Assembly (NCBI GenBank): GCA_025355245.1
Contig: JANXZZ010000236.1
Span: forward strand, 1 to 38,254
Reading direction: 5' to 3'
DNA length: 38,254 bases
From: Pseudomonadota bacterium
GTDB taxonomy: Bacteria; Pseudomonadota; Gammaproteobacteria; Steroidobacterales; Steroidobacteraceae
Under the pieces are notes generated by a model. It ran no database searches. It saw only the letters and a list, made by a program, of their open reading frames with translations, and had not been told where the DNA came from. Position 1 is the first letter of the stretch, and the number at the start of each line of letters is the position of its first letter. Of the stretch, positions 24,566 through 38,044 are shown one piece after another. Made by a program: the position numbers and the translations under genes.

Positions 24566-25396
24566 CTACTGCGCGGCGAGCCGGGCGTCGGCGAGGCGCT
24601 GGCGTTCGCCACGCCGCACCAGGTAGCCGGCGGTGAGCACGCAGACACCTACCGCGCAGATGATCAGGCTCGCGAGCGCGTTGATGTCGGGGCTCACGCC
24701 GAGTTTTACCTTCGAGTAGATCACCATCGGCAGCGTGCTCGAGCGCGGACCCGAGACGAAACTCGAGATCACGAGATCATCGAGCGACAGCGTGAAGCTG
24801 AGCAGCCAGCTCGAGATCAGTGCCGGCGAAATGATCGGCAGGGTGATGTCGACGAAGGCCTGCAACGGGCTCGCCCCCAGGTCCATCGCCGCCTCTTCCA
24901 GCGATCGATCAGCCGTCTGCAGGCGCGACTGCACGGTGATCGTCACGTAGGCGGTGCAAAACGCGACGTGCGAAATCACGATCGTGGTCATGCCTCGGCT
25001 CGGCCAGCCGACCAGCTGCAGCATCGAGACGAAGAGCAGGAGCTGCGTGATGCCGGTGATTATTTCCGGCATCACTAGCGGCGCGCCCACCATGCCGGTT
25101 AGCAGCAGGCGGCCGCGGAAGCGGCTGAAGCGCACGAGCGCGATGGCTGCCAGCGTGCCGAGGACCAGCGCACCGGTCGAGGAAACCGCGGCGACCTCGA
25201 GCGATAGCGCCGCGGCCTTCAGGATCTGCTGGTTGTGCAGAAGTTCGGTGTACCAGGACGTCGAGAATCCGCCCCACACGCTCGCGAGGGCCGAGGCGTT
25301 GAACGAGAAGCCGATCAGCACCAGCATCGGCAGGTACAGGAACGCGATGCCGATGCAGAGCACCGAGAGCAGCAGCGGCGAGAAGCGCTTTTCCAC
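24566..25396 (-). CDS. polyamine-type ABC transporter permease (PotC/PotI-like)
   Basis: This 276-residue inner-membrane permease has six membrane spans. Its EAA loop EEAAMDLGASPLQAFVDITLP is followed by SPALISSWLLSFTLSLDDLVISSFVSGP, a very characteristic PotC/PotI stretch. The start is a GTG at 25396, two bases after the partner permease's stop, with GGAG eight bases upstream. Longer in-frame extensions run through the partner gene and are rejected. It pairs with the permease at 25399-26352. Neither an ATPase nor a binding protein is adjacent. The transported compound could be a polyamine or another cationic amine. Confidence 0.9.
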   Translation of the reverse strand: MEKRFSPLLLSVLCIGIAFLYLPMLVLIGFSFNASALASVWGGFSTSWYTELLHNQQILKAAALSLEVAAVSSTGALVLGTLAAIALVRFSRFRGRLLLTGMVGAPLVMPEIITGITQLLLFVSMLQLVGWPSRGMTTIVISHVAFCTAYVTITVQSRLQTADRSLEEAAMDLGASPLQAFVDITLPIISPALISSWLLSFTLSLDDLVISSFVSGPRSSTLPMVIYSKVKLGVSPDINALASLIICAVGVCVLTAGYLVRRGERQRLADARLAAQ

Positions 25397-25398
25397 GG

Positions 25399-26352
25399 CT
25401 ACTGCTCCAGCTGCCGTATTCGGTAGTACTGGTGCACCGCGATCGGCCCCGCCAGCAGCACCAGGAAGGCGATGGAGACGGCCGCCGCCACCGGCCAGTC
25501 GTGGTTGGCGAAGAACTCGTCCCACAGCACGCGCCCGATCATCAGGTTGTCGGGTCCGCCGAGCAGCGCCGGGATCACGTACTCGCCGATCGCCGGGATG
25601 AACACCAGCATCGAGCCCGCGATGACGCCGGGCATCGACAAGGGCAGCGTTACGTCGAGGAACGCGCGCCACGGCCGGCTGCCGAGATCGGATGCCGCCT
25701 CGAGGAGTGTGACGTCGAGTTTCTCGAGCGTCGCGAACAGCGGCAGCACCATGAACGGCAGGTAGGAATAGACGATGCCAAGATAGACTGCGAAGGTCGT
25801 GCGCATGAGCTTGAGCGGGTGGTCGATGACCCCGAGCCACAGGAGCGCGCTGTTCAAAAGACCGTTGTCGCGGATGATCCCCTCGAGGGCATAGACCCGG
25901 AGCAGGAACGACGTCCAGAATGGCAGGATGATGACCAGCATCAGGATGCCCTGCGTCGCCTTCGACGAGCGCGCCATCGCGTAGGCCATCGGGTAGCCGA
26001 TCAGGAGACATATCAGCGTCGAAAAGAAGGCGGTCTTGAGGGAGTAGAGGTAGGAAACCGCATAGACTTCATCGTTGAGCAGGTACGCGTAGTTTCTGAG
26101 GGTTGGCGTGAGGTGCAGGTGGTGATCGGCAGTGATCTGCCACACCTCGCTGAACGGCGGGATGCGCAGCGCCGCCTCGGCAAAGCTGATCTTGAGCGCA
26201 AAGGCGAACGGGATGAGGAAGAACACCAGCAGGAACACGAGCGGCGGCAGGATGATGAGCCAGCGTCCGTGCCGGGCGACGATGCCGCCGAGAGAAAATC
26301 GCGCCGCGCTCCGACGCGCCGCGGGACTCTTCGTCTGTGCCACTGGCTCCAT
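25399..26352 (-). CDS. polyamine-type ABC transporter permease (PotB/PotH-like)
   Basis: This 317-residue permease, the same length as E. coli PotH, has an N-terminal cytoplasmic tail and six membrane spans. It carries the family stretches ILPFWTSFLLRVYALEGIIR and LEAASDLGSRPWRAFLDVTLP, then PGVIAGSMLVFIPAIGEYVIP. It forms the heterodimeric channel with the PotC-like protein. The start is the ATG at 26352, and the divergent regulator gene begins 65 bp away at 26418. Control by that TetR-type regulator is therefore likely. In-frame sequence further upstream would overlap the regulator and looks like noise. Confidence 0.9.
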   Translation of the reverse strand: MEPVAQTKSPAARRSAARFSLGGIVARHGRWLIILPPLVFLLVFFLIPFAFALKISFAEAALRIPPFSEVWQITADHHLHLTPTLRNYAYLLNDEVYAVSYLYSLKTAFFSTLICLLIGYPMAYAMARSSKATQGILMLVIILPFWTSFLLRVYALEGIIRDNGLLNSALLWLGVIDHPLKLMRTTFAVYLGIVYSYLPFMVLPLFATLEKLDVTLLEAASDLGSRPWRAFLDVTLPLSMPGVIAGSMLVFIPAIGEYVIPALLGGPDNLMIGRVLWDEFFANHDWPVAAAVSIAFLVLLAGPIAVHQYYRIRQLEQ

Positions 26353-26417
26353 TGCGCGATCGGCTCCCCGGGACCGCTGATGCGGCCGGCGGCAAGAGTC
26401 TGCCCGAGGCACTCGCA
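26353..26417. promoter_or_regulatory. short divergent control region of regulator and permease genes
   Basis: Only 65 bp separate two divergent starts, so both promoters must overlap or extend into coding DNA. CCGCTGATGCGG (26374-26385) is a perfect 4-bp-arm inverted repeat, with GG/CC extending outward past one unpaired base. TCCCCGGGA lies just before it. Either could be the operator of the TetR-type regulator. GAGG (26405-26408) serves the regulator start. Confidence 0.4.
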
Positions 26418-28124
26418 ATGCGGAAGGGCACCGGCAGCCCGGGGCGTTCGAAAGTGAAGCGCGCGGCACCGCAGCGCGGCTCGCGCCCCCCGTCCCCTGC
26501 CCGGCCGCGCGCCTCGCGCGAACGCCAGCGCCAGCGGCTGATCGACGCCTGCATCTCGGCCCTGCACGTTTACGGGCCGTCCAATACAACCGTGGAAAAG
26601 GTGGTGGCGATCGCGCGGATGTCGCCCGGCATCGTGCGCTTCTATTTCGAGTCGAAGGCCGCAATGCTGGTGGCTTCGCTCGAGTATCTGGCGGCGGAAT
26701 TCGAGGACCGGCTGCTGGTACCGGTCGGCGCGCTCAAGGCGACCCCGGTGGCGGCGCTCGAGCGGCTCGTCGATCTATACCTCGGGGCCGAGATCGCGAC
26801 TGCCCGCAAGGTGTCGGTCTGGTACTCCTTCTGGGGCGAAGCGAGCTCCCGCCAGGAGTATTTCGACATCTGCGGCACGCGCGACGAGCGCTTCGAAGTG
26901 CTGGTCCGCGAGCTCATCGGGCGGCTCATCGAGGACACCCGCTCGCGGCACCTCGATGCGGACGCAATCGCGCTCGGGCTCATCGGCGTGCTCGAGATGC
27001 TCTGGCAGAGCTACGCCTTCCAGACCGAGTCGACGATCGATCGCGCCGCCGCGGGCCGGCGCTGCATGGCTTACCTGCGTTCGGTGTTCCCGAGCCGGTT
27101 TCCGGTTGCGGAGCGGCCGCCAGCGGCCGCGGAGCTGCCGCCGGCGGCGTACTCGAATGCGACGCTGTTCGAGAGTGAGCGACGGGAACTGTTCCACGGC
27201 AGCTGGCAGTTCATCGGCCTCGAGCAGGAGCTTCGTGCGCCCGGGGATTTCCTCAGCCTCGAGGCCCCGGCCACGCGCGCGCTGGTGGTGCGCCAGGCGT
27301 CGGGAGCCCTGCGCGCCTTTCACAACGCCTGCCGTCAGCGCCCGCACGCACTGACCGCCTCCCGCGCGGGCCACTTCGGCGACGTCATCGCGTGCGCCCA
27401 GCACGGCCTCCACTACAATCTCGCCGGCGAGGCGCTCGACGGAACGCCCGGCGGACCGCTCCGCGACCTCGAGCTCGCCTCCGCGGGCGAGTTCATGTTC
27501 GTGCGCGCCCGCGCGGAGCACAGCGCGGAGGCCGAAGCACCGGCGGCTCAGGCCGCATTCGCGGCCTCGGGCCTCAAGCTCGGCGCCGTCGCGCCGCCCG
27601 TTGAGCGCGAAGTCGCCGCGGACTGGAAACTTCTCGTCGAACACTGGCTCGAGAATCCCGCCGAGGCCGCGACGACGCCGGGCGTCGTCGAGTTCGCGGG
27701 GCCCCTGGTCTGCGGCCGCGGATGGAGCGAGGCACGCTATCGCGCGCTCGTCCCGGCCGGTCTCGTTCCCGAGTGGCAGCAGAGCTTCGTTGCTCCAAAC
27801 CAGCTCATCGACATGCGACCGGGCCGGGTCGAGGTCACCCAGGTGGTGCCGCAGGCCCCGGGGCGTTGTCTCGTGCGCGTGTTTGCATTCGCTGGCAACC
27901 CCTCGACCCGCGAAGCGCGCGCGCTCGGCTACCTCGCTGCGCGCGCCGCGCGCGCGCGCCCGGCAACGGAGCGGGCCCTCGCGACGTCCGTCCAGAAGGG
28001 CCTCGACGCTGGCGTGCCGGGTGACGGGGTGCTTGGCGAAGTGCCAGTGCCGCTCGCCGAATTTCGCCATAGAATTGCGCGCCTGCTTCCGGTCGCGCTG
28101 CGTCACTCTGGAGATTCGACATGA
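26418..28124 (+). CDS. TetR/BetI-like regulator fused to a degenerate Rieske-oxygenase domain
   Basis: This 568-residue protein has two domains. Residues 33-225 form a TetR regulator: helix-turn-helix at about 38-80 (TTVEKVVAIARMSPGIVRFYF) and a ligand domain resembling BetI (VWYSFWGEA). Residues about 245-560 match the whole length of a Rieske non-heme iron oxygenase. Compared with the intact Rieske enzyme at 30829-31995, the Rieske motif C-x-H is C305-x-Q307, while C326-x2-H329 is kept. The iron-site histidines align with A415 and T420, and the ligand Asp with E518. The catalytic chemistry should be lost, so I infer a sensor role. TetR proteins are normally about 200 residues. The ATG at 26418 is preferred because an earlier GTG would overlap the divergent permease. 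Its stop overlaps the next gene's ATG (ATGA), so regulator and aldehyde dehydrogenase are coupled, as in betI-betB. Confidence 0.85.
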   Translation: MRKGTGSPGRSKVKRAAPQRGSRPPSPARPRASRERQRQRLIDACISALHVYGPSNTTVEKVVAIARMSPGIVRFYFESKAAMLVASLEYLAAEFEDRLLVPVGALKATPVAALERLVDLYLGAEIATARKVSVWYSFWGEASSRQEYFDICGTRDERFEVLVRELIGRLIEDTRSRHLDADAIALGLIGVLEMLWQSYAFQTESTIDRAAAGRRCMAYLRSVFPSRFPVAERPPAAAELPPAAYSNATLFESERRELFHGSWQFIGLEQELRAPGDFLSLEAPATRALVVRQASGALRAFHNACRQRPHALTASRAGHFGDVIACAQHGLHYNLAGEALDGTPGGPLRDLELASAGEFMFVRARAEHSAEAEAPAAQAAFAASGLKLGAVAPPVEREVAADWKLLVEHWLENPAEAATTPGVVEFAGPLVCGRGWSEARYRALVPAGLVPEWQQSFVAPNQLIDMRPGRVEVTQVVPQAPGRCLVRVFAFAGNPSTREARALGYLAARAARARPATERALATSVQKGLDAGVPGDGVLGEVPVPLAEFRHRIARLLPVALRHSGDST

Positions 28125-29617
28125 ATACCGCGCTTTCCACCCGTGACTGGCATTCACGCGCCGGGGAGATCAAGTACGCGACCGGTCACTTCATCGACGG
28201 CGAACACGTCGCGGGCAAGAAGGGGGCGAGCTTCACCGTCACGAATCCGGCCACGGGCGCGCCGCTGTGCGAGGTCGCGGCGGGGACCGCCGAGGACGTC
28301 AATCGCGCGGTCGCCTCCTGCAAGCAGTCGTTCAAGGCCGGCGTGTGGCGCTACATGGCGCCGCGCGACCGCCTCGCGGTGCTGTCGCGGCTTGCCCAGC
28401 TCATCGACGCCAACGCCGAGCGCTTTGCGCTGCTCGACACCCTGTGCATGGGCAAGCCCGTGCGCGACATGCTGGCCAGCGATGTGCCGGCCGCGGTGCA
28501 GACCTTCGCTTACTTCGCGGAGCTGTCCGACAAGATCGACGGCGCGGTGACCTCGACCGCGGTCGATGCCTTTCACTACATCCTGCGTGAGCCGCTCGGC
28601 GTGGTCGGCTGCATCGTGCCGTGGAACTACCCGCTGCTGATGGCGTCGTGGAAGGTCGCACCCGCGCTCGCCGCCGGCAATTCCGTGGTCCTGAAGCCCG
28701 CCGAGCAGTCGCCGCTGTCGGCCCTCTTGCTCGGCGAATTGTTCATCGAGGCGGGCGGCCCGCCCGGCGTCCTCAACGTCGTGAATGGCCTCGGCGAGGC
28801 GGCAGGCGCGGCGCTCGCGCTGCACGCCGACGTCGCCAAGATCGCCTTTACCGGCTCGACCGAGATCGGCAAGCTCATGCTCGTCTACGCCGGCCAGTCC
28901 AACATGAAACGGGTCAGCCTCGAGTGCGGCGGCAAGTCGCCGCAGATCTTCCTGGCGGACCTCGAGGACCTCGATCGCGCGGTGACCTACGCGATCAACG
29001 GCATCTACGGGAACATGGGCGAGGTCTGCAACGCGGGCTCCCGCCTCTTGATCGACAAACCGATCGCCGAAGCCTTCGTTGCGCGCTTCATTGAGCGCGG
29101 CAAGGGCGCCTATCGCGCCGGCGACCCGCTGGACCCCGAGACCAACCTCGGGCCACTGGTGACCGCGCAGCACCGGTCGCGCGTGCTCGACTACATCGGC
29201 AAGGGCAAGAAGGACGGCGCGCGGCTCGAGTTCGGTGGCGACACGCCCGCGCTCCCCGGCAGCTACGTGAACCCGACGCTGTTCTCGGGGGTCACGAACA
29301 CGATGACCATCGCGCGCGAGGAAATCTTCGGCCCGGTCGCGTCCGCCATCGTCGTGAACGGCCTCGAGGATGCGCTCAGGATCGCGAACGATTCCATCTA
29401 CGGGCTCGCGGCCTCGGTGTGGACCCGCGACCTCACGACGGCGCACAAGGCCGTACGCGGCCTCGAGGCGGGCGTCATCTGGGTGAACTGCTTCGACCAC
29501 GGCGACATGACGCAGCCCTTCGGCGGCTACAAGCAGTCGGGCCAGGGCCGCGACAAGTGCTTGGAGAGCCTGCTCGGCTACACGCAGACCAAGTCGGCCT
29601 GGATCCACCTCGGCTAA
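28121..29617 (+). CDS. aldehyde dehydrogenase (betaine-aldehyde/gamma-aminobutyraldehyde type)
   Basis: This 498-residue NAD(P)-dependent aldehyde dehydrogenase has N169 in VPWNYP, K192 in LKPAEQSP, base E268 in LECGGKS and nucleophile C303 in GEVCNAGSRLL. The overall pattern is nearest the BetB/PuuC group, which oxidises amino or quaternary-ammonium aldehydes to acids. Its ATG overlaps the stop of the TetR-Rieske regulator by four bases. It converges on the first Rieske oxygenase gene with a 19-bp gap. Rieske N-demethylation or amine oxidation can release such aldehydes, so a role in the same pathway is plausible. Confidence 0.92.
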   Translation: MNTALSTRDWHSRAGEIKYATGHFIDGEHVAGKKGASFTVTNPATGAPLCEVAAGTAEDVNRAVASCKQSFKAGVWRYMAPRDRLAVLSRLAQLIDANAERFALLDTLCMGKPVRDMLASDVPAAVQTFAYFAELSDKIDGAVTSTAVDAFHYILREPLGVVGCIVPWNYPLLMASWKVAPALAAGNSVVLKPAEQSPLSALLLGELFIEAGGPPGVLNVVNGLGEAAGAALALHADVAKIAFTGSTEIGKLMLVYAGQSNMKRVSLECGGKSPQIFLADLEDLDRAVTYAINGIYGNMGEVCNAGSRLLIDKPIAEAFVARFIERGKGAYRAGDPLDPETNLGPLVTAQHRSRVLDYIGKGKKDGARLEFGGDTPALPGSYVNPTLFSGVTNTMTIAREEIFGPVASAIVVNGLEDALRIANDSIYGLAASVWTRDLTTAHKAVRGLEAGVIWVNCFDHGDMTQPFGGYKQSGQGRDKCLESLLGYTQTKSAWIHLG

Positions 29618-29636: not shown

Positions 29637-30806
29637 TCAGCTGCGCGCGAGCTCCGCGCGCAGCCACTGGTGCAGCCGGAAGACGTCGTATTCTTCCGGC
29701 ATCAGCAGCCCGTGCGCGTGGCGCTGCGAGCGCAGGCCGCGCTGGTTGAGCTCGCATACCGCGCCGTCCTCGGCCATGACCTGGGCGGAGAATTCCCACG
29801 CCTTGCGGATGTCGACATTCTTGTCCGCCAGAGTCGCGTGCGGAAACAACCACTCGATGCTGAGTTCGGTCTCCTCCGGTCCCAACGGCAGGATCCGCGA
29901 CGAGCGCACGTGATCGACGTGCGCGACCAAGTAGTGCGAGGGCATGCTCGTCATGTAGTGGTAGCCCAAGCGCCGCTCCTCGGCCGTGAGCCCGGGGAAC
30001 TCGTGGCCGAGCGAACGGCCGTCGATCGACCAGGTGGCCGCGTCGCTCCTGAGCCCGCCCTTGTAGGCGGGCTCCGCCTTCGCCGCATGCGCGCGCCAGT
30101 TGGGATCGTCGCGCTCTTCCATGATCCCGCGGCGGTAGATGGGCACGAGGCTGCTGAGGCCGGGATGCACGTTCGGGCAGTGCAGGCACTCGTTGTAGTT
30201 TTCCCAGAAGATCTTCCAGTTGCACTGGATCCTCTTGCTCAGCCGGTGGCCGACCACGAGATCCTCGAGCGGCCAGTGCGCGACGGTCTCGGTGTTGGCG
30301 TTGAAGTTTTCGCTCAGGCCCTTCCCGGAATCGCCGAGGTTGGCGTACAGGAAGCCCTTCCAGTCCTTGAGCGGAATGGTGTAGAGCCGCGTGCCGTCGG
30401 TGTCGATGTGGTGCGGCCGGCCGGCCGAGGGAATGCGCGCGAGTTCGCCGTTGAGCCGGTAGCTCCAGGCATGGTACGGGCAGGTGATAGTCCTGGCGGG
30501 CAGGCGGCCGGCGGGCTCCGGGCAGAGCATCGCGCCGCGATGCCGGCAGGTGTTGAAGAACGCGCGCAAGGCGCCGGCCTCGTCGCGCACCACCAGCACC
30601 GGCTGCGTGCCGACGGTGAAGGTGCGGTAGGAACCCGGCTCCGCGATAGTGTCGGCGCGCCCGAGGTACACCCAGTTGCGATACCAGACGCGCTCGAGCT
30701 CGAGCGCGTACTGGGCGGGGTCGTAGTACCAGCTCGCCGGCAGCGAATGCTCGAGCTTCTTGAGACCGTAGAACTCGCCCGCGGTGGGATCGGCCTCCGC
30801 ACTCAT
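29637..30806 (-). CDS. Rieske [2Fe-2S] oxygenase, alpha subunit (quaternary-amine type)
   Basis: This 389-residue oxygenase component has both metal sites intact. The Rieske cluster ligands are C87, H89, C109 and H112 (TCRHRGAM; TCPYHAWSY). The mononuclear iron ligands are H209, H214 and D347 (NECLHCPNVH; AEDGAVCELNQRG). The residue linking the two sites is E206 rather than the Asp of aromatic dioxygenases. That Glu is a mark of the enzymes acting on quaternary amines (carnitine monooxygenase CntA, glycine betaine monooxygenase GbcA, stachydrine demethylase). The ATG has GGGAGG seven bases upstream. The gene follows a paralogue by 22 bp. No ferredoxin-reductase partner lies in the window. The exact substrate is unknown. 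Confidence 0.9.
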   Translation of the reverse strand: MSAEADPTAGEFYGLKKLEHSLPASWYYDPAQYALELERVWYRNWVYLGRADTIAEPGSYRTFTVGTQPVLVVRDEAGALRAFFNTCRHRGAMLCPEPAGRLPARTITCPYHAWSYRLNGELARIPSAGRPHHIDTDGTRLYTIPLKDWKGFLYANLGDSGKGLSENFNANTETVAHWPLEDLVVGHRLSKRIQCNWKIFWENYNECLHCPNVHPGLSSLVPIYRRGIMEERDDPNWRAHAAKAEPAYKGGLRSDAATWSIDGRSLGHEFPGLTAEERRLGYHYMTSMPSHYLVAHVDHVRSSRILPLGPEETELSIEWLFPHATLADKNVDIRKAWEFSAQVMAEDGAVCELNQRGLRSQRHAHGLLMPEEYDVFRLHQWLRAELARS

Positions 30807-30828: not shown

Positions 30829-31995
30829 TCAGGCGAAACGCGCCGGGGCCGCGGGCAGGCGCACTTCCGGGATCGTCTCGCGCAGCAGGTCGTGGAAATT
30901 GTGCATCCACTGCTCGAGCGATGACAAGGGTCCGGGCGTGTAGCTCGGCGAGGCGAGCCCGCGCTGCACGCGCTCGCACAAGAAGCGGTCCTCGTTGTTC
31001 ACGCTCGCGTTGATGCGGTTGCTGAGGAGCCGCAGCACGCGCATTTCGCGCCGCTCGTCCGGCAGCCCGTAGATCGCATAGCGAATCACGCACTTTCCGG
31101 GTCCGCGCGGCAGCACCTGGAAGAAATCCATGAGCTCCGGGTACACGTCGATGCCGAGGTTGGGCAGCATGCTGTAGAAGCGCCAGCAGCGGCTGTGGCT
31201 CTCGGGCAGGTGCTGGATCGTGGGGCCCACGAGCGTCTGGTAGAAGCGCTCGCTCCAGCGCGAGGAGGGCTGGTCGCGCAGCCAGCTGGTGCCGCGGGCG
31301 ATGCCCATCGCGCCTTTCTGGTCCTCGTAGTCCGGCGTGAACATGCGGTTGAGGCCCGGGTGTCCGACGGGCACGTGGTAGGACTCGAGGTAGTTGTCCA
31401 TAGCGACTTTCCAGTCGACGTCCCAGTTCTCGTAAGACACGGGGACCAGCGGGACCATGTCCTCGAAGCGGTACGGCTCAAGCTCGGCCATGAAGGGCGC
31501 AAAGCGCTCCTTGAGCGGTGGCGGGGTCGAGCCGAGGCAGACCCAGACAAAGCCGAGCGCGACCTCGACGTGGACCCGCTTGAGGCCGTGCTCGGCGCGA
31601 TCGAGGCCGACGAAAGAGTCCTTGCCTGGCACGCCGATCAGCGAGCCTTCGTAGTTGTACGACCAGCCGTGGTACGGGCAGACGATCGTGCCCGGGCAGT
31701 GGCCCGCAGCGTCGAGCAGACGCGCGCCACGGTGGCGGCACACGTTGTGATAGGCGCGCACCCGCTGCTCGCGGTCACGAACCACGACGATGCTGTCGAG
31801 CCCGAGGTCGAAGGTCGAGAAATCGCCCGGCTTCGGAACCTCGCTCGCGTGGCAGGCGATCTGCCAGCTCGGGCGGATGATTCGCTCGAGCTCGAGGCGG
31901 GTCATTTCGGGGTGGTTGTAGATCCACGCGGGCAGCGCCCGGGGCGCTGTCGAGGCCGGGGTCTTGTCCGCCTCAAGGACGATTGAGGTTGCCAC
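30829..31995 (-). CDS. Rieske [2Fe-2S] oxygenase, alpha subunit (second, paralogous copy)
   Basis: This 388-residue oxygenase has Rieske ligands C86, H88, C106 and H109 (VCRHRGAR; VCPYHGWSY), iron ligands H207, H212 and D336 (LESYHVPVGH; NNEDRFLCERVQRG), and the bridging E204. It has the same quaternary-amine-type layout as its downstream neighbour, but sequence identity between them looks low outside the motifs, so they probably do different steps or pair as unequal subunits. The start is a GTG with GGGGAG seven bases upstream. Its SWQ...PGDF and NxCRHRG regions are the best in-window match to the degenerate domain fused to the TetR regulator, which suggests a common ancestor. Confidence 0.9.
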   Translation of the reverse strand: MATSIVLEADKTPASTAPRALPAWIYNHPEMTRLELERIIRPSWQIACHASEVPKPGDFSTFDLGLDSIVVVRDREQRVRAYHNVCRHRGARLLDAAGHCPGTIVCPYHGWSYNYEGSLIGVPGKDSFVGLDRAEHGLKRVHVEVALGFVWVCLGSTPPPLKERFAPFMAELEPYRFEDMVPLVPVSYENWDVDWKVAMDNYLESYHVPVGHPGLNRMFTPDYEDQKGAMGIARGTSWLRDQPSSRWSERFYQTLVGPTIQHLPESHSRCWRFYSMLPNLGIDVYPELMDFFQVLPRGPGKCVIRYAIYGLPDERREMRVLRLLSNRINASVNNEDRFLCERVQRGLASPSYTPGPLSSLEQWMHNFHDLLRETIPEVRLPAAPARFA

Positions 31996-32289
31996 GTGCG
32001 TGCTCCCCGCGTGCTTATACGTCCGTTCAATCTACCCCTTCTGACGGCCGGTCGGCAAGCGAGTTATGGTAAAAACAGGGCCCGTATTATATTTTTAATT
32101 ACTTTTATATTTCAGATGCTTAAGATCCTTTCGAGACCAATCCTTCGTAGTGCTCGGGGTAACTCGCGGATGCTGCAGCGCAATCCGCACGAAAGTTATA
32201 TGAGTATATAGATTCCCGTGGACTGACCCCCGCTCCGGATGGTAGCTTTCGAGGCCTAAGTGCATCGTCAACCGGGGGGAGAAACGGCC
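31996..32289. promoter_or_regulatory. 294-bp divergent intergenic region with AT-rich blocks
   Basis: This gap lies between the Rieske operon (minus) and the aminotransferase operon (plus). It contains a 29-bp run with a single C or G before its end (32085-32113) and a second AT block (32194-32214). Both stand out sharply against the GC-rich background. The shared box at 32227-32255 and the Shine-Dalgarno GGGGGGAG just before 32290 belong to the aminotransferase side. AT blocks may be promoter UP-elements or binding sites for a nucleoid protein. I see no gene. Confidence 0.5.
32227..32255 (+). promoter_or_regulatory. promoter-like box shared with 20061-20100
   Basis: CCCCCGCTCCGGA (32227-32239) is followed by TGGTAGCTT and TCGAGGC (32249-32255). 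The 13-base core and the trailing TCGAGGC are identical to the box before the hydroxyacid dehydrogenase gene. Here it ends about 35 bp before the aminotransferase start. Promoter or regulator site is inferred from the repeat alone. Confidence 0.45.
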
Positions 32290-33614
32290 ATGGCGCGAAA
32301 CTTAACCAAGAGCAATGCGCAGTGGCAGCGTGCGGTCACGAAGCTGCCGCTCGGGGTCGCTTCGAACTTCCGCTACTGGGGCGAAGACCGAACGATCTAC
32401 GTCAAGGAGGGACGCGGCGGACGCGTGACCGACCTCGACGACAACGTCTACGTCGACTACCGCCTGGGCTACGGCCCGGCGATCCTCGGCTACGCCGATG
32501 CGCGGGTCGATGCGGCGGCGCGCAAGGGCAGGGAGGTCGGCGGCGTATTCGCGCTCTCGACCGAGCGCGAGTTCACCGTGGCCGCGCGCATCTCGAAGAT
32601 GGTGCCGGCGGCGGAACTCGTGCGTTTCTCGAACTCGGGCACCGAGGCGGTGATGGCGGGCCTGCGCCTCGCCCGCGCGTTCACCGGGCGCGACGACTAC
32701 ATCATTCTCGAGGGCGGCTACCACGGGCTCTTCGACGCGGCGATGTGGTACACGCCGATGGAAAAGTGGGCCGAGGTCGGGGAGCCCGAGGTCAAGCCCT
32801 ACAGCGAGGGCATTCCGCTCGGCGTGCGCGGCTTCGCGCACTTCGTCCAGGCGAACGACGCCAACCAGCTCGAGGACACCTTCCGTCGGCACGCCGGCAA
32901 GATCGCCTGCATGCTGATCGAGCCGATCATGGGCAACTGCCTCGGCATCGCCGCGGAGGCCGATTACCTGCGCACCGCACGGGCGCTTTGCGACAAGTAC
33001 GGCGTGGTGCTGCTGATCGACGAGGTGAAGACCGGATTTCGCGTCGCGCGCGGCGGCGTGCAGGAGCTTTATGGCGTCAACGCCGACCTCTGCACCTTCG
33101 CGAAGGCGGTCGCCAACGGCTACCCGATTTCCGTGCTCGCGGGTCGCGAGGACATCATGCGCAAGCTCGGCCGGGGCGTCGCGCACGGCGGTACCTACAC
33201 CGCGCATTCGGTTTCGCTTGCCGCGGCGGAGGAGTGCCTGCGGATTCTCGACGAGACCGACGCGCTCGAGCGCATCGCGAGCTACGGAACGCGGCTGCGT
33301 AAGGGCATGAGCGCGGTGCTGAGCGCGCGCGGCATCCCGCACAGCTTCGTCGGCCACCATCGATGAGCGGCCTCTATTTCGCGGCCGACCCGCCGCGCAA
33401 CTACCGCGCGTGGAAGAGCAGCGACTACGCGTTCTACGACGCGATGGCGCAGGTCCTGCACGACGAGGGCGTGCTCTGCGAGCCCGACTCGCGCGAGCCC
33501 TGGTTCATCTGCGCGGCGCACGACGATGCCTGCCTCGCCGACACGCTGCGCGGCTTCGAGATCGCCGTCGATGCGACGCTGCGCTCGCGGATCGCCGACA
33601 AGGTCCCGGCCTGA
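32290..33614 (+). pseudogene. class III aminotransferase (glutamate-1-semialdehyde aminomutase-like), frameshifted
   Basis: This PLP-dependent enzyme of about 440 residues is split by one missing base. The first part (ATG at 32290 with GGGGGGAG upstream) has the SNSGTEA phosphate-binding loop (114-120), D244 in LLIDEVKTGFR and the PLP lysine K272 in FAKAVANGYP. It stops early at VGHHR. The rest continues in another frame from 33363 as MSGLYFAADPPRNYR to the stop at 33614. Adding one C near 33354-33358 would give VGHPSMSGLYF, the usual sequence of this family. The two parts overlap by four bases (ATGA), so separate translation is possible but unlikely to be the original state. The enzyme would transfer an amino group to or from a keto or aldehyde substrate. 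It opens the cluster of flavoproteins and GcvT-like protein. Confidence 0.85.
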
Positions 33615-33634
33615 GCGGCCGGCGACCCGAACCC

Positions 33635-35248
33635 GTGGCGACTCAAGGGGTGCCCGCGAGCGGCCGGCAGGACGTCATCGTCGTTGGCGCCGGCCACAAC
33701 GGGCTGGTCGCCGCGTGCTACCTCGCGCGCGCCGGCCTCAAGGTCCTGGTGCTCGAACGCAACGACTACATCGGCGGCGCCGCGGTAAGCCGCAAGCTGT
33801 ACGGGGACTTCACCTACTCGAACTGCTCGTACGTTTGCAGCCTGCTCCGTCCCGAGATCATGCGTGCGCTCGAGTTGCCGCGCTACGGCCTGCAGGTGAT
33901 CCCGTACGAGGGTGGCTGCACGATGATGCGCGACGGCGGCCATCTCGCGCTCTACGACAACCACGACGCGCTCCGGCGCGAGATCGCGCGCCACTCGCCG
34001 CGTGACGCGGAGGCCTATCACCGCTTCTCGACCGACGTGATCCGCCAGTGCAAGTTCATCAAGCCGCTCCTGATGCGCGAGCCGCCGGATCCCACCTCGT
34101 TCAAGCCGCGCGACCTCATGGAGCTCCTCTACCTCGGCCAGCGCCTGAACGGCATGGGCGAGGAGCGCATGTACGACACGCTGCGCTTCTGGACCATGTG
34201 CGCGGCCGACTTCCTCGACGAGTATTTCGAGAGCGAGATCGTCAAGGCGCACTTCGCCGGCAGCTCGATCATCGGCACCGCGCTCGGGCCGCGCTCGCCG
34301 GGCACCGCCTACGTGCTGCTGCACCACTACATGGGCGACATCGACGACACGGTCGGCGCCTGGGGCTTCGCACGCGGCGGCATGGGTGCGATCACGCAGG
34401 CGCTGACCGCATCGCTCGAGGCGAGCGGCGGGAGCGTGCGCACCGGCGCGCCGGTCGCGCAGATGCTCATCAGGAACGGGCGCACCTACGGCGTCGCGCT
34501 CGCGAGCGGCGAGGAGATCGCGGCGCCGATCGTCGTCTCCAACATGGACGTCAAGCGCACCTTCCTCGAATCGGTCGCTCCCGAACACCTCCCCGAGGAC
34601 TTCCTGACGGCGGTACGGCGCTTCAAGATCCGCGGCTCCTCCGGCAAGCTCAACATCGCGCTCGACGGGCTGCCGCACTTCCCGGCGATCCCCGAGGGCT
34701 CGCCCTCGATCCGCGGCGACCTGCATCTCACCGACACCATCGAGATGATGGAGCGCGCCTACGATGACTGGAAGGACGGCCGCTGGTCGGCGGCTCCCTA
34801 CGTCGACATGCTGATCCCCTCGCAGATCGACCCGACGATGGCGCCGGACGGCAAGCACTACATGTCGGTGTTCGTGCAGTACTGCCCCTACCAACTCGCC
34901 GACGGGCCCTGGACGGATGCGAAGCGCAAGGCCTTCGGCGACACGGTCATCGACGCGATCGCGCGGCAGAGCCCGAACTTCAAGAGCCTGATCCTGCACG
35001 CCGAGGTGCGCACGCCCTGGGATATCGAGAACGAGGTCGGACTCACGGAAGGCAATATCTTCCAGGGCGAGCTGACCATGGACCAGCTGCTCTTTAACCG
35101 TCCGGTGCCCGGCTTCGCGCAATACCGCACGCCGGTGAACGGCCTCTACATGTCGGGGTCCAGCACGCACCCGGGTGGCGGCGTGATGGGCGCGCCTGGC
35201 GCCAACGCCGCGCGGCGCATCCTGCGTGACCTGGGACGGGCGCAGTGA
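33635..35248 (+). CDS. phytoene dehydrogenase-like FAD oxidoreductase (first of two)
   Basis: This 537-residue flavoprotein of the CrtI/PYROXD2-like family binds FAD through VIVVGAGHNGLVAACYLARAG (about 14-34) with the acidic end VLERND. The C-terminal GLYMSGSSTHPGGGVMGAPG is the typical FAD-capping segment. Carotenoid desaturation is unlikely because no phytoene synthase or carotenoid gene is nearby, and this branch contains many uncharacterised bacterial amine or alkyl oxidoreductases. The GTG at 33635 is chosen because longer in-frame versions run through the aminotransferase gene; a GTG at 33650 is an alternative. It overlaps the next paralogue by four bases (GTGA), so the two are translationally coupled and may form a heteromer. 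Confidence 0.83.
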   Translation: MATQGVPASGRQDVIVVGAGHNGLVAACYLARAGLKVLVLERNDYIGGAAVSRKLYGDFTYSNCSYVCSLLRPEIMRALELPRYGLQVIPYEGGCTMMRDGGHLALYDNHDALRREIARHSPRDAEAYHRFSTDVIRQCKFIKPLLMREPPDPTSFKPRDLMELLYLGQRLNGMGEERMYDTLRFWTMCAADFLDEYFESEIVKAHFAGSSIIGTALGPRSPGTAYVLLHHYMGDIDDTVGAWGFARGGMGAITQALTASLEASGGSVRTGAPVAQMLIRNGRTYGVALASGEEIAAPIVVSNMDVKRTFLESVAPEHLPEDFLTAVRRFKIRGSSGKLNIALDGLPHFPAIPEGSPSIRGDLHLTDTIEMMERAYDDWKDGRWSAAPYVDMLIPSQIDPTMAPDGKHYMSVFVQYCPYQLADGPWTDAKRKAFGDTVIDAIARQSPNFKSLILHAEVRTPWDIENEVGLTEGNIFQGELTMDQLLFNRPVPGFAQYRTPVNGLYMSGSSTHPGGGVMGAPGANAARRILRDLGRAQ

Positions 35249-36834
35249 GCGCCTCGTCCCCGCCGGCGACGCGCGGCCCGTTCGACTGCATCGTCGTGGG
35301 CGCCGGCCACAACGGACTCGTGTGCGCAACCTACCTCGCCCGGGCGGGACGCACGGTGCTGGTGGTCGAAGCCGCGGATCGGGTCGGCGGCGCAGCGGTG
35401 ACCCGCGAATTCGCGCCGGGACACCGCGTGTCGGCAGGCGCCCATCTGCTGCACCAAATGCCGGAAGCATTGCTTGCGGACCTGCGACTCGCGGAACACG
35501 GTTTCGACTACGCGGCCCGCGCCCTGCCGACAACCGCGCTCGCGGCCGATCGCCCACCGCTGCCGATCGGCTTGGGCGGCCTTGCGGCGCTCGGCGCCGT
35601 GTCGCCCCGCGACGCGGCCGCGTTCGTTCCGTTCCAGGAGCGCCTCGGCCGGTTCGCGAAGGTGCTCTACCCGCTGCTCGATTCGATCCCGCCGCGCCTC
35701 GGCACCGACTCGTGGGGTGACCGGCTCGCATTCCTCAAGCTCGGCTGGCGCATCCGCACCCTCGGACGCCGGGACATGCGTGAGCTCCTGCGCATCATCG
35801 GCATGAACGCCTACGACCTGATCAGCGACGAGTTCGAGACGCCACTCCTGCAAGGTGCGCTCGGCTTCGACGCGATCCTCGGCACCAACTTTGGGCCGCG
35901 CGCACCCGGCACCGTGCTCACGTTGCTCAACCGCCTCGCAGCGGAATCGGCCGTAGCGCCACAGCCGCTGTCGCAGCCGAAGGGCGGCATGGGCGCCCTG
36001 AGCGATGCGCTGGCGAAGGCCGCGATCGCGGCCGGCGCGAGCGTGCGCACCGGCGCACGGGTCGCAAGAATTCGCATCGAGGGGGACCGGGTCGTCGGCG
36101 TCGCTCTCGAGTCGGGCGAGGCCATCGATGCGCGCGTCGTGCTCTCGAGCGCGGATGCCAAGACGACGTTCCTGAAGCTCCTCGGCACGCGCCACCTCGA
36201 CACCGGTTTCGTGCGGCGCGTCGATCACCTGAGGAGCAAGGGGCTCGCGGCCAAACTGCACCTCGCGCTCGACCGCGCGCCCGTATTCCGCGGCGTCGAT
36301 GCCCGCGCGCTCGGCGGCCGCCTCCTCATCGCGCCGTCGCTCGACTACCTCGAGCGCGCGTGGAACTGCTCGAAATACGGGGAATCGTCGACCACCCCCG
36401 CGCTCGAGGTGACCTTGCCGACGGTCCACGATCCCGCGCTTGCGCCCTCGGGACGCCACGTGCTGTCGGCGATCGTTCAGTACGTACCCTACGCGCCGAA
36501 GGCCGGATGGGGCGCGGAGCGCCCGCGCGCGCTCGAGAACGTGCTCGCCACGCTCGAGGAGCATGCGCCGGGTCTGCGCGCCTCCGTAACCGCGAGCGAA
36601 TTCCTCACGCCGGCCGATCTCGAGCGCGAGTTCGGCATGAGCGGCGGACACTGGCATCACGGGGAACTCGCTTTCGACCAGTTCTACATGGTCCGCCCGG
36701 TACCGGGCGCTGCCCAGTACCGCACGCCGGTCGCGGGCCTGTACCTGTGCGGCGCGAGCGGCCACCCGGGCGGCGGCGTCATGGGCCTCGCGGGCCGCAA
36801 CGCCGCGCGGGCGCTGCTAAGAGGAGCCGCCTGA
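35245..36834 (+). CDS. phytoene dehydrogenase-like FAD oxidoreductase (second of two)
   Basis: This 529-residue paralogue of the preceding protein has CIVVGAGHNGLVCATYLARAG (about 14-34) for FAD and a C-terminal GLYLCGASGHPGGGVMGLAG. Middle regions also align (GPRAPGT, KGGMGALSDAL), but overall similarity looks moderate, consistent with old duplication. The GTG start overlaps the previous stop by four bases. Tandem flavoproteins of this type beside an aminotransferase and a GcvT-like protein suggest oxidation of an amine or N-methyl compound. The direct substrate is unknown. Confidence 0.83.
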   Translation: MSASSPPATRGPFDCIVVGAGHNGLVCATYLARAGRTVLVVEAADRVGGAAVTREFAPGHRVSAGAHLLHQMPEALLADLRLAEHGFDYAARALPTTALAADRPPLPIGLGGLAALGAVSPRDAAAFVPFQERLGRFAKVLYPLLDSIPPRLGTDSWGDRLAFLKLGWRIRTLGRRDMRELLRIIGMNAYDLISDEFETPLLQGALGFDAILGTNFGPRAPGTVLTLLNRLAAESAVAPQPLSQPKGGMGALSDALAKAAIAAGASVRTGARVARIRIEGDRVVGVALESGEAIDARVVLSSADAKTTFLKLLGTRHLDTGFVRRVDHLRSKGLAAKLHLALDRAPVFRGVDARALGGRLLIAPSLDYLERAWNCSKYGESSTTPALEVTLPTVHDPALAPSGRHVLSAIVQYVPYAPKAGWGAERPRALENVLATLEEHAPGLRASVTASEFLTPADLEREFGMSGGHWHHGELAFDQFYMVRPVPGAAQYRTPVAGLYLCGASGHPGGGVMGLAGRNAARALLRGAA

Positions 36835-36835
36835 C

Positions 36836-38044
36836 ATGGCACCCAGCGATCCGGTCGCGCCACATTTTCGCAAGCCACTGCTCGAGACGCCGTTCCACGC
36901 GCGTGCGCGCGAGCTCTCGCAGATCGACCAGTTCGTGCCGTGGGCGGGCTACAACACCGTCGACGTGTTCACGACGGTCGAGCAGGAGTATTTCGCGATC
37001 CGGAATGCCTCGACGCTTTACGACCTGACCCCGATGGTGAAGTACCGGGTGGCGGGCTCGGAGGCGCTCGAGTTCCTTAACCGCCTGGTCACGCGCGATG
37101 TGCGCAAGCTCAAGGTCGGCCGCGTCAGCTATGTGGTCTGGTGCAACGACCGGGGCCACGTGATCGACGACGGCACGATCTTCCGGCTCGGCGAGACGGA
37201 ATTCCGGCTGTGTACCGCCGAGCGCCAGCTCGACTGGCTGCTCGATTCCGCGCTCGGTTTCGACGTCGAGATCGCCGAGGTGACGACCGACATCGCCGCG
37301 CTCGCCGTGCAGGGCCCGACGTCCTGCTACATCCTTAAACGCTTCGGGCTCGAGGGCGTCGAGCGGCTGAAGGTATTCGAGATCGGCGAGTTCGTGGTGC
37401 GCGGACGCCCGCTGACCGTGTCGCGCACGGGATTCACCGGAGACCTCGGCTACGAGCTCTGGATGCGACCCGCCGACGCGGTCGCGATCTGGGACGAGCT
37501 CATGGCGGCGGGTCGCACGCGCGGCCTCAGGGCCATCGGCTCGCAGGCGCTCAACATGGCACGGATCGAAGCCGGCTTCCTGATGCCGAACATCGACTTC
37601 GTGAACGCCGAGCACACCGTGCGGCTGGGCCGCGACCGCTCGCCGCTCGAGCTCGGACTCGGCTGGCTCGTCGATCTCGACAAGCCGCACTTCAACGGCC
37701 GCCGGGCGCTTCTGGCCGAGAAGACACGGGGACCCCGGCGGCTGCTGGTCGGGCTCGACGTCGCCGGCAGCAAGCCCGCCCACAACGCCCTTCTCTACGC
37801 CGAGGAAGCCGGCCGCCGGGAGGTCGGCAGCGTCACCTCCGCGCTTTGGTCGCCGACCTGCAAGCGCAACATCGCGCTCGCGATCGTCGAGGGCCCTCAT
37901 TTCGCGGTCGGGACCGTGCTCTGGGCGGACATCTACCTCAACCGCGAGCTCGTGTGGGAGCGGCGCATGGCCCGATGTACGGTGGTCGAGAAGCCGTTCT
38001 TCGCGCCCGACCGACGACGCGCCACGCCTCCGGCGGACCGGTAG
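36836..38044 (+). CDS. GcvT-like aminomethyltransferase family protein
   Basis: This 402-residue protein has the three-domain folate-binding fold of glycine-cleavage T-protein, dimethylglycine dehydrogenase and DMSP demethylase. The folate-contacting acidic pair appears in CNDRGHVIDDGTIFR (about 100-114), the conserved SRTGFTGDLGYELWM follows (about 200-214), and the C-terminal beta-barrel is present. Such proteins take a one-carbon unit from an N- or S-methyl group onto tetrahydrofolate. The ATG lies one base after the previous stop, with GAGGAG upstream, so it is in the same operon. It would be the methyl-accepting partner of the upstream flavoproteins; this is inference. Confidence 0.87.
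   Translation: MAPSDPVAPHFRKPLLETPFHARARELSQIDQFVPWAGYNTVDVFTTVEQEYFAIRNASTLYDLTPMVKYRVAGSEALEFLNRLVTRDVRKLKVGRVSYVVWCNDRGHVIDDGTIFRLGETEFRLCTAERQLDWLLDSALGFDVEIAEVTTDIAALAVQGPTSCYILKRFGLEGVERLKVFEIGEFVVRGRPLTVSRTGFTGDLGYELWMRPADAVAIWDELMAAGRTRGLRAIGSQALNMARIEAGFLMPNIDFVNAEHTVRLGRDRSPLELGLGWLVDLDKPHFNGRRALLAEKTRGPRRLLVGLDVAGSKPAHNALLYAEEAGRREVGSVTSALWSPTCKRNIALAIVEGPHFAVGTVLWADIYLNRELVWERRMARCTVVEKPFFAPDRRRATPPADR

Follow-up and report, generated by a model that had tools for sequence, protein, structure and literature searches.

The window, i.e., the whole stretch of 38,254 nucleotides that was analysed, carries a gene in which a TetR domain and a Rieske-oxygenase fold are fused in a single frame, between divergent transporter genes and Rieske oxygenase genes (Table 1). 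The forward frame 26337-28124 runs through 595 codons without a stop. Codon 26337 is taken as residue 1 (protein P0001), so that our residue numbers are those of the initial annotation plus 27, while the numbering of the AlphaFold2 model equals that of P0001 minus 27. An in-frame ATG is present at 26418; however, in the alignment of the upstream region an ATG coincides with the GTG at 26451, or lies no more than a few columns away from it, in 8 out of 10 relatives, and in one further relative a GTG does so. The true start is therefore probably GTG 26451 rather than ATG 26418.

Table 1. Features of the locus in window coordinates (residue numbers refer to P0001).
Feature	Coordinates	Strand	Remarks
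PotB/PotC-type ABC transporter permeases, divergent	24566..26352	-	PotB start ATG at 26352
Short divergent intergenic stretch, probable operator region	26353..26450		
TetR-pseudo-oxygenase fusion gene	26451..28124	+	Start probably GTG 26451; earlier ATG 26418; frame open from 26337
TetR/BetI-like DNA-binding and dimer domain	26502..27101	+	Residues 56-255; profiles, structural match
Rieske-oxygenase-derived domain, mononuclear iron site lost	27129..28106	+	About residues 265-590; profiles, model
Putatively rewired Rieske site	27330..27404	+	C332 27330-27332, H337 27345-27347, C353 27393-27395, H356 27402-27404; canonical His334 is Gln
W437-L438-E439, at the places of CntA Tyr203 and bridging Glu205	27645..27653	+	Alignment
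Aldehyde dehydrogenase	28121..29617	+	ATG overlaps the fusion stop codon
RO_B (P0002), intact Rieske oxygenase	29637..30806	-	
RO_A (P0003), intact Rieske oxygenase	30829..31995	-	Convergent
Class-III aminotransferase, two FAD amine-oxidase-like proteins, GcvT-like protein	32260..38044	+	Conserved beyond RO_A

The fused domains and their gene neighbourhood

The domain make-up of the window protein is supported by Pfam profiles and by structure prediction. TetR_C_6 (45.6 bits versus a cut-off of 27, E 9.1e-12), Rieske (31.7 bits versus 20.3, E 1.4e-7) and Ring_hydroxyl_A (25.5 bits versus 24.9, E 1.4e-5) all exceed their cut-offs, the last one matching with its C-terminal half only (profile positions 104-205 of 208). 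The helix-turn-helix profile TetR_N remains just below its cut-off (21.9 bits versus 24, E 1.5e-4); in related fusions with an intact oxygenase domain all four cut-offs, including that of TetR_N, are passed (4/4 scanned). In NCBIfam, BetI and glycine betaine monooxygenase score best, each remaining far below its cut-off; the BetI equivalog TIGR03384 scores 68.7 bits in the window protein and does not reach its curated cut-off of 201.3. The AlphaFold2 model of the window fusion, built from 55 sequences, has a mean pLDDT of 88.6 and a pTM of 0.69. Its residues 33-225 match the TetR structure 3crj (Z 20.1), and superposition of its residues 232-558 on the carnitine monooxygenase CntA gives a Z of 27.6 with an rmsd of 3.2 over 307 aligned residues; the predicted structure thereby shows that the C-terminal part holds an oxygenase fold, with CntA and stachydrine demethylase as its top structural relatives. 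The model of an intact fusion from Inquilinus (mean pLDDT 82.5) matches the same oxygenases at a Z of about 33. A search of a viral structure library returned two unnamed matches at E <= 0.001. The protein is best explained as a TetR/BetI-type transcription factor with an added domain that was once a Rieske oxygenase, of the type active on quaternary ammonium compounds.

The surrounding genes are conserved as well. Within the available flanks of 64 fused loci, PotBC-like genes occur in 58, a class-III aminotransferase-like gene in 46, an RO_A-like gene in 45, and the two FAD oxidases and GcvT in 37 each. Under the stricter scores and positions applied to the 57 loci in which the oxygenase domain lacks the in-register iron His pair (the dead class, see below), a divergent PotBC-like ORF lies upstream in 53 and a convergent RO_A in 44, 26 of these within 150 bases; the same loci contain an aminotransferase (40), GcvT (36), an adjoining aldehyde dehydrogenase (18) and RO_B (11). 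Where long flanks are available, RO_A is convergent in 36 of 38 dead-class loci, which agrees with the proposal of the initial annotation that Rieske oxygenase genes adjoin the fusion. Stachydrine demethylase and CntA are among the best matches of RO_A by sequence in the PDB, which hints at quaternary ammonium chemistry.

When the regions upstream of 73 TetR starts were searched for inverted repeats and for 8-mers in common, no palindrome was convincing, and the highest-ranking 8-mers resemble PotB coding sequence. The stretch GAGTCTGCCCGAG (26396-26408) is conserved just 5' of the fusion gene in about nine relatives of the same genus. It occurs exactly once in the window; when two mismatches are allowed, 2 occurrences are found versus 2.27 expected in shuffled sequences.

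Distribution, classes and descent of the fusions

Among 60 related genomes 37 match the window protein at E <= 1e-10, lone TetR or lone Rieske matches included, and the long fusion matches share 43-69% identity. Out of 217 genomes from the family of the window, 74 match at E <= 1e-45, and these belong to 8 of its 25 genera; many weaker matches cover the TetR part only. A scan of 84,980 species, each represented by one genome, yielded 144 relatives, from which 80 loci were retained. The partly overlapping set of loci L017-L116, in which some genomes were entered twice, contains 81 single-frame ORFs with both domains, 67 of them distinct by their last 150 residues. According to the record titles, the fusions stem mostly from gammaproteobacterial or other proteobacterial metagenome genomes, some of them Steroidobacteraceae, and from Inquilinus limosus; 5 of the 17 genomes sampled from the Inquilinus order carry an intact fusion. 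Among 212 plasmid records with a match, none has one place that covers 80% of the query. The claim of one uninterrupted TetR-Rieske frame is thus borne out by the open frame, the Pfam matches and single-frame homologues, which show the same domain order near Rieske genes in dozens of genomes. An artefact or chance fusion is ruled out by these homologues together with the confident AlphaFold2 model. Two records stand out by their titles: L111, titled Mycobacterium sp. KBS0706, contains a fusion 94-98% identical to the Inquilinus fusions, and a Candidatus Paceibacterota genome (L112) carries a TetR of the fusion clade. Both are probably mislabelled or misbinned.

By their ligand residues the fusions fall into two classes, one with all catalytic ligands kept, as in Inquilinus, and the dead class, to which the window protein belongs. 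In the intact fusions (L023, L024, L103, L109, L110 and their kin) the four Rieske ligands and the His-His-Asp iron triad are all retained (9/9 rows). Ligand-complete fusions were noted at L109, L111, L113, L115 and L144-L147, at L023 and L024, at L103, and at L110 and L114; such proteins are possible oxygenases that control their own transcription.

The trees place the two classes together, with long branches that make exact placements unsure. In the Rieske tree, built from 71 of the 158 rows (every one of the 10 intact fusions plus random subsets of the others), the 17 dead rows form a single group (support 100), and a branch with support 96 has these rows and 8 of the 10 intact fusions on one side. 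It is probable that the dead class shares descent with the catalytically intact fusions and, given this grouping, the fusion probably preceded the loss of catalysis. L110 and L114 group with unfused oxygenases, yet a tree constrained to place them among the fusions is not rejected either (p-AU 0.364). In the TetR tree, to which 19 outgroup rows were added, all 18 fused rows fall in a 24-row clade (97/97) together with six unfused TetRs. A constraint that keeps the fused rows together with five unfused ones nested among them is likewise not rejected (p-AU 0.291); in the best tree, however, a further unfused TetR (L159) falls inside this grouping. These trees are compatible with one or two origins of the fusion. 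Of the unfused TetRs (L094, L096-L102, L104-L106), several are nested in the dead clade and point to a later loss of the oxygenase domain in some lineages. In contig C34 of genome G023 (L168:1052-2949, reverse strand) one of the six unfused TetRs of this clade is immediately followed by a separate gene for an intact oxygenase, and the TetR stop codon overlaps the ATG of the latter (ATGA); this tandem represents either a pre-fusion or a split arrangement.

Ligand positions and selection in the oxygenase-derived domain

The losses of catalytic ligands that the initial annotation had assigned hold for the window protein. The first Rieske ligand pair is C332-x-Q334 in place of Cys-x-His, which leaves the C-x-H...C-x2-H cluster set incomplete. 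In the 2-His-1-carboxylate iron triad the two His are replaced by A442 and T447 (T446 in another alignment) and the Asp by E545. For a wider comparison we aligned Rieske domains from which duplicates and short pieces had been removed, namely 55 of the dead class, 10 of intact fusions and 93 of stand-alone enzymes. The canonical first Rieske His is found in 8 of 54 dead-class domains and is invariant in the intact fusions (10/10) and in the stand-alone enzymes (92/92), the latter being mostly RO_A and RO_B relatives from the same loci and hence an uneven sample of Rieske enzymes. None of 59 dead-class rows, the window included, has an in-register iron His pair. In 4 of 55 dead-class domains (L068, L071, L079, L116) an H-x4-H pair is displaced two residues upstream and an Asp occupies the third place, and these domains may still hold iron.

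L083 is akin to this displaced-His sub-lineage, with the second His lost. L068 and L083, the two long-flank loci that miss RO_A, group with the displaced-His loci by the sequence of that stretch. At L068, L079, L083 and L116 no RO_A was seen over 7-10 kb of downstream sequence, so that the fused domain in these loci may do the enzymatic work itself.

A different set of residues is conserved around the lost Rieske His. C332 and H337, the residue at C332 + 5, are present in 54 of 54 dead-class domains, C353 in 54 of 55 and H356 in 53 of 55. The resulting C-x4-H...C-x2-H set is complete in 52 of 55 and broken in three (L074, L088, L090), and it ranks among the best conserved features of the dead domain, along with A428 (55/55), P336 (53/54), S551 (51/53) and E435 (50/55). 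Position 334, in contrast, is occupied by Arg, Gln, Val, Glu and others where the His is gone. This variability, while the other four residues stay, indicates that metal-type residues are selectively kept; judged from the alignments, the Rieske site is rewired rather than abandoned. H337 occurs in 8 of the 10 intact fusions versus none of the 92 sampled stand-alone enzymes. All eight also retain His334, from which it follows that the spare His predates the ligand loss. We know of no Rieske cluster with a C-x4-H spacing. CntA also has a His at the +5 position; the cluster ligands reported for it are Cys86, His88, Cys106 and His109 (PMC7948474). The +5 His is not among these ligands, so the conservation of H337 does not prove ligation.

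In the old substrate pocket, 43 of 55 dead-class domains have Trp (W437 in the window protein) at the position of CntA Tyr203 (cation-pi), and 41 of 55 have Glu or Asp at the bridging-acid position (E439, CntA Glu205). The iron-site region of the dead domain is partly deleted. The earlier suggestion that the domain keeps its substrate pocket is therefore supported in part, by the aromatic and acidic positions but not by the iron-site region. That the window's domain lacks the catalytic ligands, derives from an oxygenase and is conserved in frame is supported; the ligand losses do not extend to every relative, considering the eight domains with a Rieske His and the four with a displaced His pair and Asp.

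The dead domain is constrained, less so than the TetR part. Among the 26 closest pairs listed, the 19 dead-dead pairs have a dN/dS of 0.17-0.44 in the dead domain versus 0.03-0.23 in the TetR part, with the former exceeding the latter in every pair, whereas the 7 intact-fusion pairs show 0.13-0.26 for the oxygenase domain and 0.11-0.17 for the TetR part. Over 1225 dead-dead pairs the median identity amounts to 39% for the dead domain and 71% for the TetR part. Truncated remnants of the domain are found at L020/L093, L089 and L095. The gene at L026:8435-10282 (the same gene as L038) has one in-frame TAG in the domain, behind which a coding-like frame resumes. Two close TetR relatives (L105:6457-7773 and L106:9935-11026) carry a different C-terminal extension of about 140-160 residues, to which no Pfam family matches at E <= 1.

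Possible modes of sensing

We propose, with somewhat less than even confidence, that the window protein is a repressor at an amine-uptake and oxygenase locus whose pseudo-oxygenase domain serves as a sensor, probably a metal- or Fe-S-bearing one. The dead domain would have kept a metal centre, for which a modified [2Fe-2S] cluster with H337 substituting for the lost His334 is the most likely candidate. The redox, assembly or ligand state of this centre would change the TetR dimer, and this change would lift the repression of amine uptake and oxidation under conditions that permit oxygenase chemistry. Trp437, which is retained, may additionally bind a quaternary ammonium ligand. In favour of a metal-bearing sensor, the four ligand-type residues are near-fixed despite a median pairwise identity of 39%. 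Against it, the dead domain evolves faster than the TetR part and is shortened or lost in several lineages. A zinc site would produce the same C-x4-H...C-x2-H conservation pattern. An altered Fe-S site, which the initial annotation had put forward as its second option, fits the conservation pattern better than the pocket idea. The more specific proposal, in which the sensor is a pseudoenzyme Rieske oxygenase with a ligand-swapped C-x4-H/C-x2-H Fe-S centre that evolved stepwise, is conceivable but tentative. The route would lead from a tandem TetR-oxygenase operon to a fused, perhaps self-controlling oxygenase, which would acquire a spare His before both the canonical ligand and the catalytic activity were lost.

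Three other explanations were weighed, and the metal-bearing sensor, ranked ahead of all of them, is the best explanation of the data. The domain could be a substrate-sensing pseudoenzyme, in which the old pocket binds the quaternary ammonium substrate or product of the oxygenase and signals to the TetR domain, with the Rieske residues holding a structural metal such as zinc. The Trp at the place of CntA Tyr203, the close structural relationship to CntA and stachydrine demethylase and the transporter and oxygenase neighbours are in line with such a role; in CntA, Tyr203 is reported to contact the quaternary ammonium group (PMC7948474). However, the strongest conservation of the dead class lies at the Rieske site and at core positions, the iron-site segment, itself belonging to the old pocket, has been deleted in part, and the TetR domain already has a ligand region of its own. 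We regard substrate sensing as unlikely, while keeping it as the first of the alternatives.

Still a little less probable, yet a serious rival, is that the oxygenase part is a relic which slowly decays after the fusion and the loss of catalysis, so that the TetR domain alone regulates. The dN/dS values, higher in the dead domain than in the TetR part for each of the 19 dead pairs listed, the remnants and unfused TetRs described above and the in-frame TAG at L026/L038 are in line with slow decay. On the other hand, dN/dS in the dead domain does not exceed 0.44, about 330 codons stay open in dozens of diverged genomes, and the model is confident. Furthermore, four non-adjacent metal-type residues are near-fixed, including H337, which is not an enzyme consensus residue.

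TetR proteins form dimers and these oxygenases trimers, a difference in symmetry that counts against a direct readout of enzyme status, in which the pseudo-oxygenase part would join RO_A subunits in mixed trimers and the repressor would read the amount or state of the oxygenase; this is highly improbable. RO_A is also missing from L068 and L083 among the 38 well-covered loci. In favour of such a readout, RO_A is convergent in the other 36 and an acid is kept at the bridging position in 41 of 55 dead-class domains, a position at which, as reported for CntA, a glutamate bridges the subunits of a head-to-tail trimer (PMC7948474).

The metal-bearing sensor that we favour has partial counterparts among known systems. 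BetI/TetR regulators (PF00440, PF13977; TIGR03384) resemble the window protein in the N-terminal domain, its predicted fold and the position divergent from a transporter gene, but lack its oxygenase-derived extension of about 340 residues. The combination of a predicted helix-turn-helix domain with an enzyme-fold domain devoid of its catalytic set, as found in the window protein, makes it the same kind of system as, though not a member of, the MocR/GabR regulators. These likewise join DNA binding (wHTH) to an enzyme-derived, aminotransferase-like sensory domain; they differ in DNA-binding domain, enzyme fold and cofactor, and no kinship is claimed. The Rrf2-family Fe-S regulators IscR, NsrR and RsrR share the proposed principle that the state of a cluster alters DNA binding. 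They belong to another family, whereas the presumed cluster here would reside in an added, oxygenase-derived domain. Our search of the open-access literature for TetR-Rieske, enzyme-derived and Rieske or Fe-S regulators found no description of a TetR-Rieske regulator.

If the rewired site indeed holds an Fe-S cluster, this would mean Fe-S or redox sensing by a TetR-type regulator and would illustrate a natural exchange of a Rieske ligand. Extant genomes seem to span the range from a separate regulator and enzyme via an intact fused oxygenase to a catalytically dead domain on a repressor, and each step from enzyme to sensor is thus open to experimental testing. The intact fusions, in turn, predict oxygenases that may govern their own transcription. 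With the Group V Rieske oxygenases (CntA, Stc2, GbcA) the window protein has in common the whole C-terminal fold, both Cys and the second His of the cluster and the aromatic and bridging-acid positions; it differs from them in lacking the first Rieske His and the iron triad and in being joined to a DNA-binding domain. The stand-alone RO_B of the window reads Glu-Cys-Leu-His-Cys at its iron site, which resembles the Cys-X-X-Cys pair reported for CntA and Stc2 (PMC10952381).
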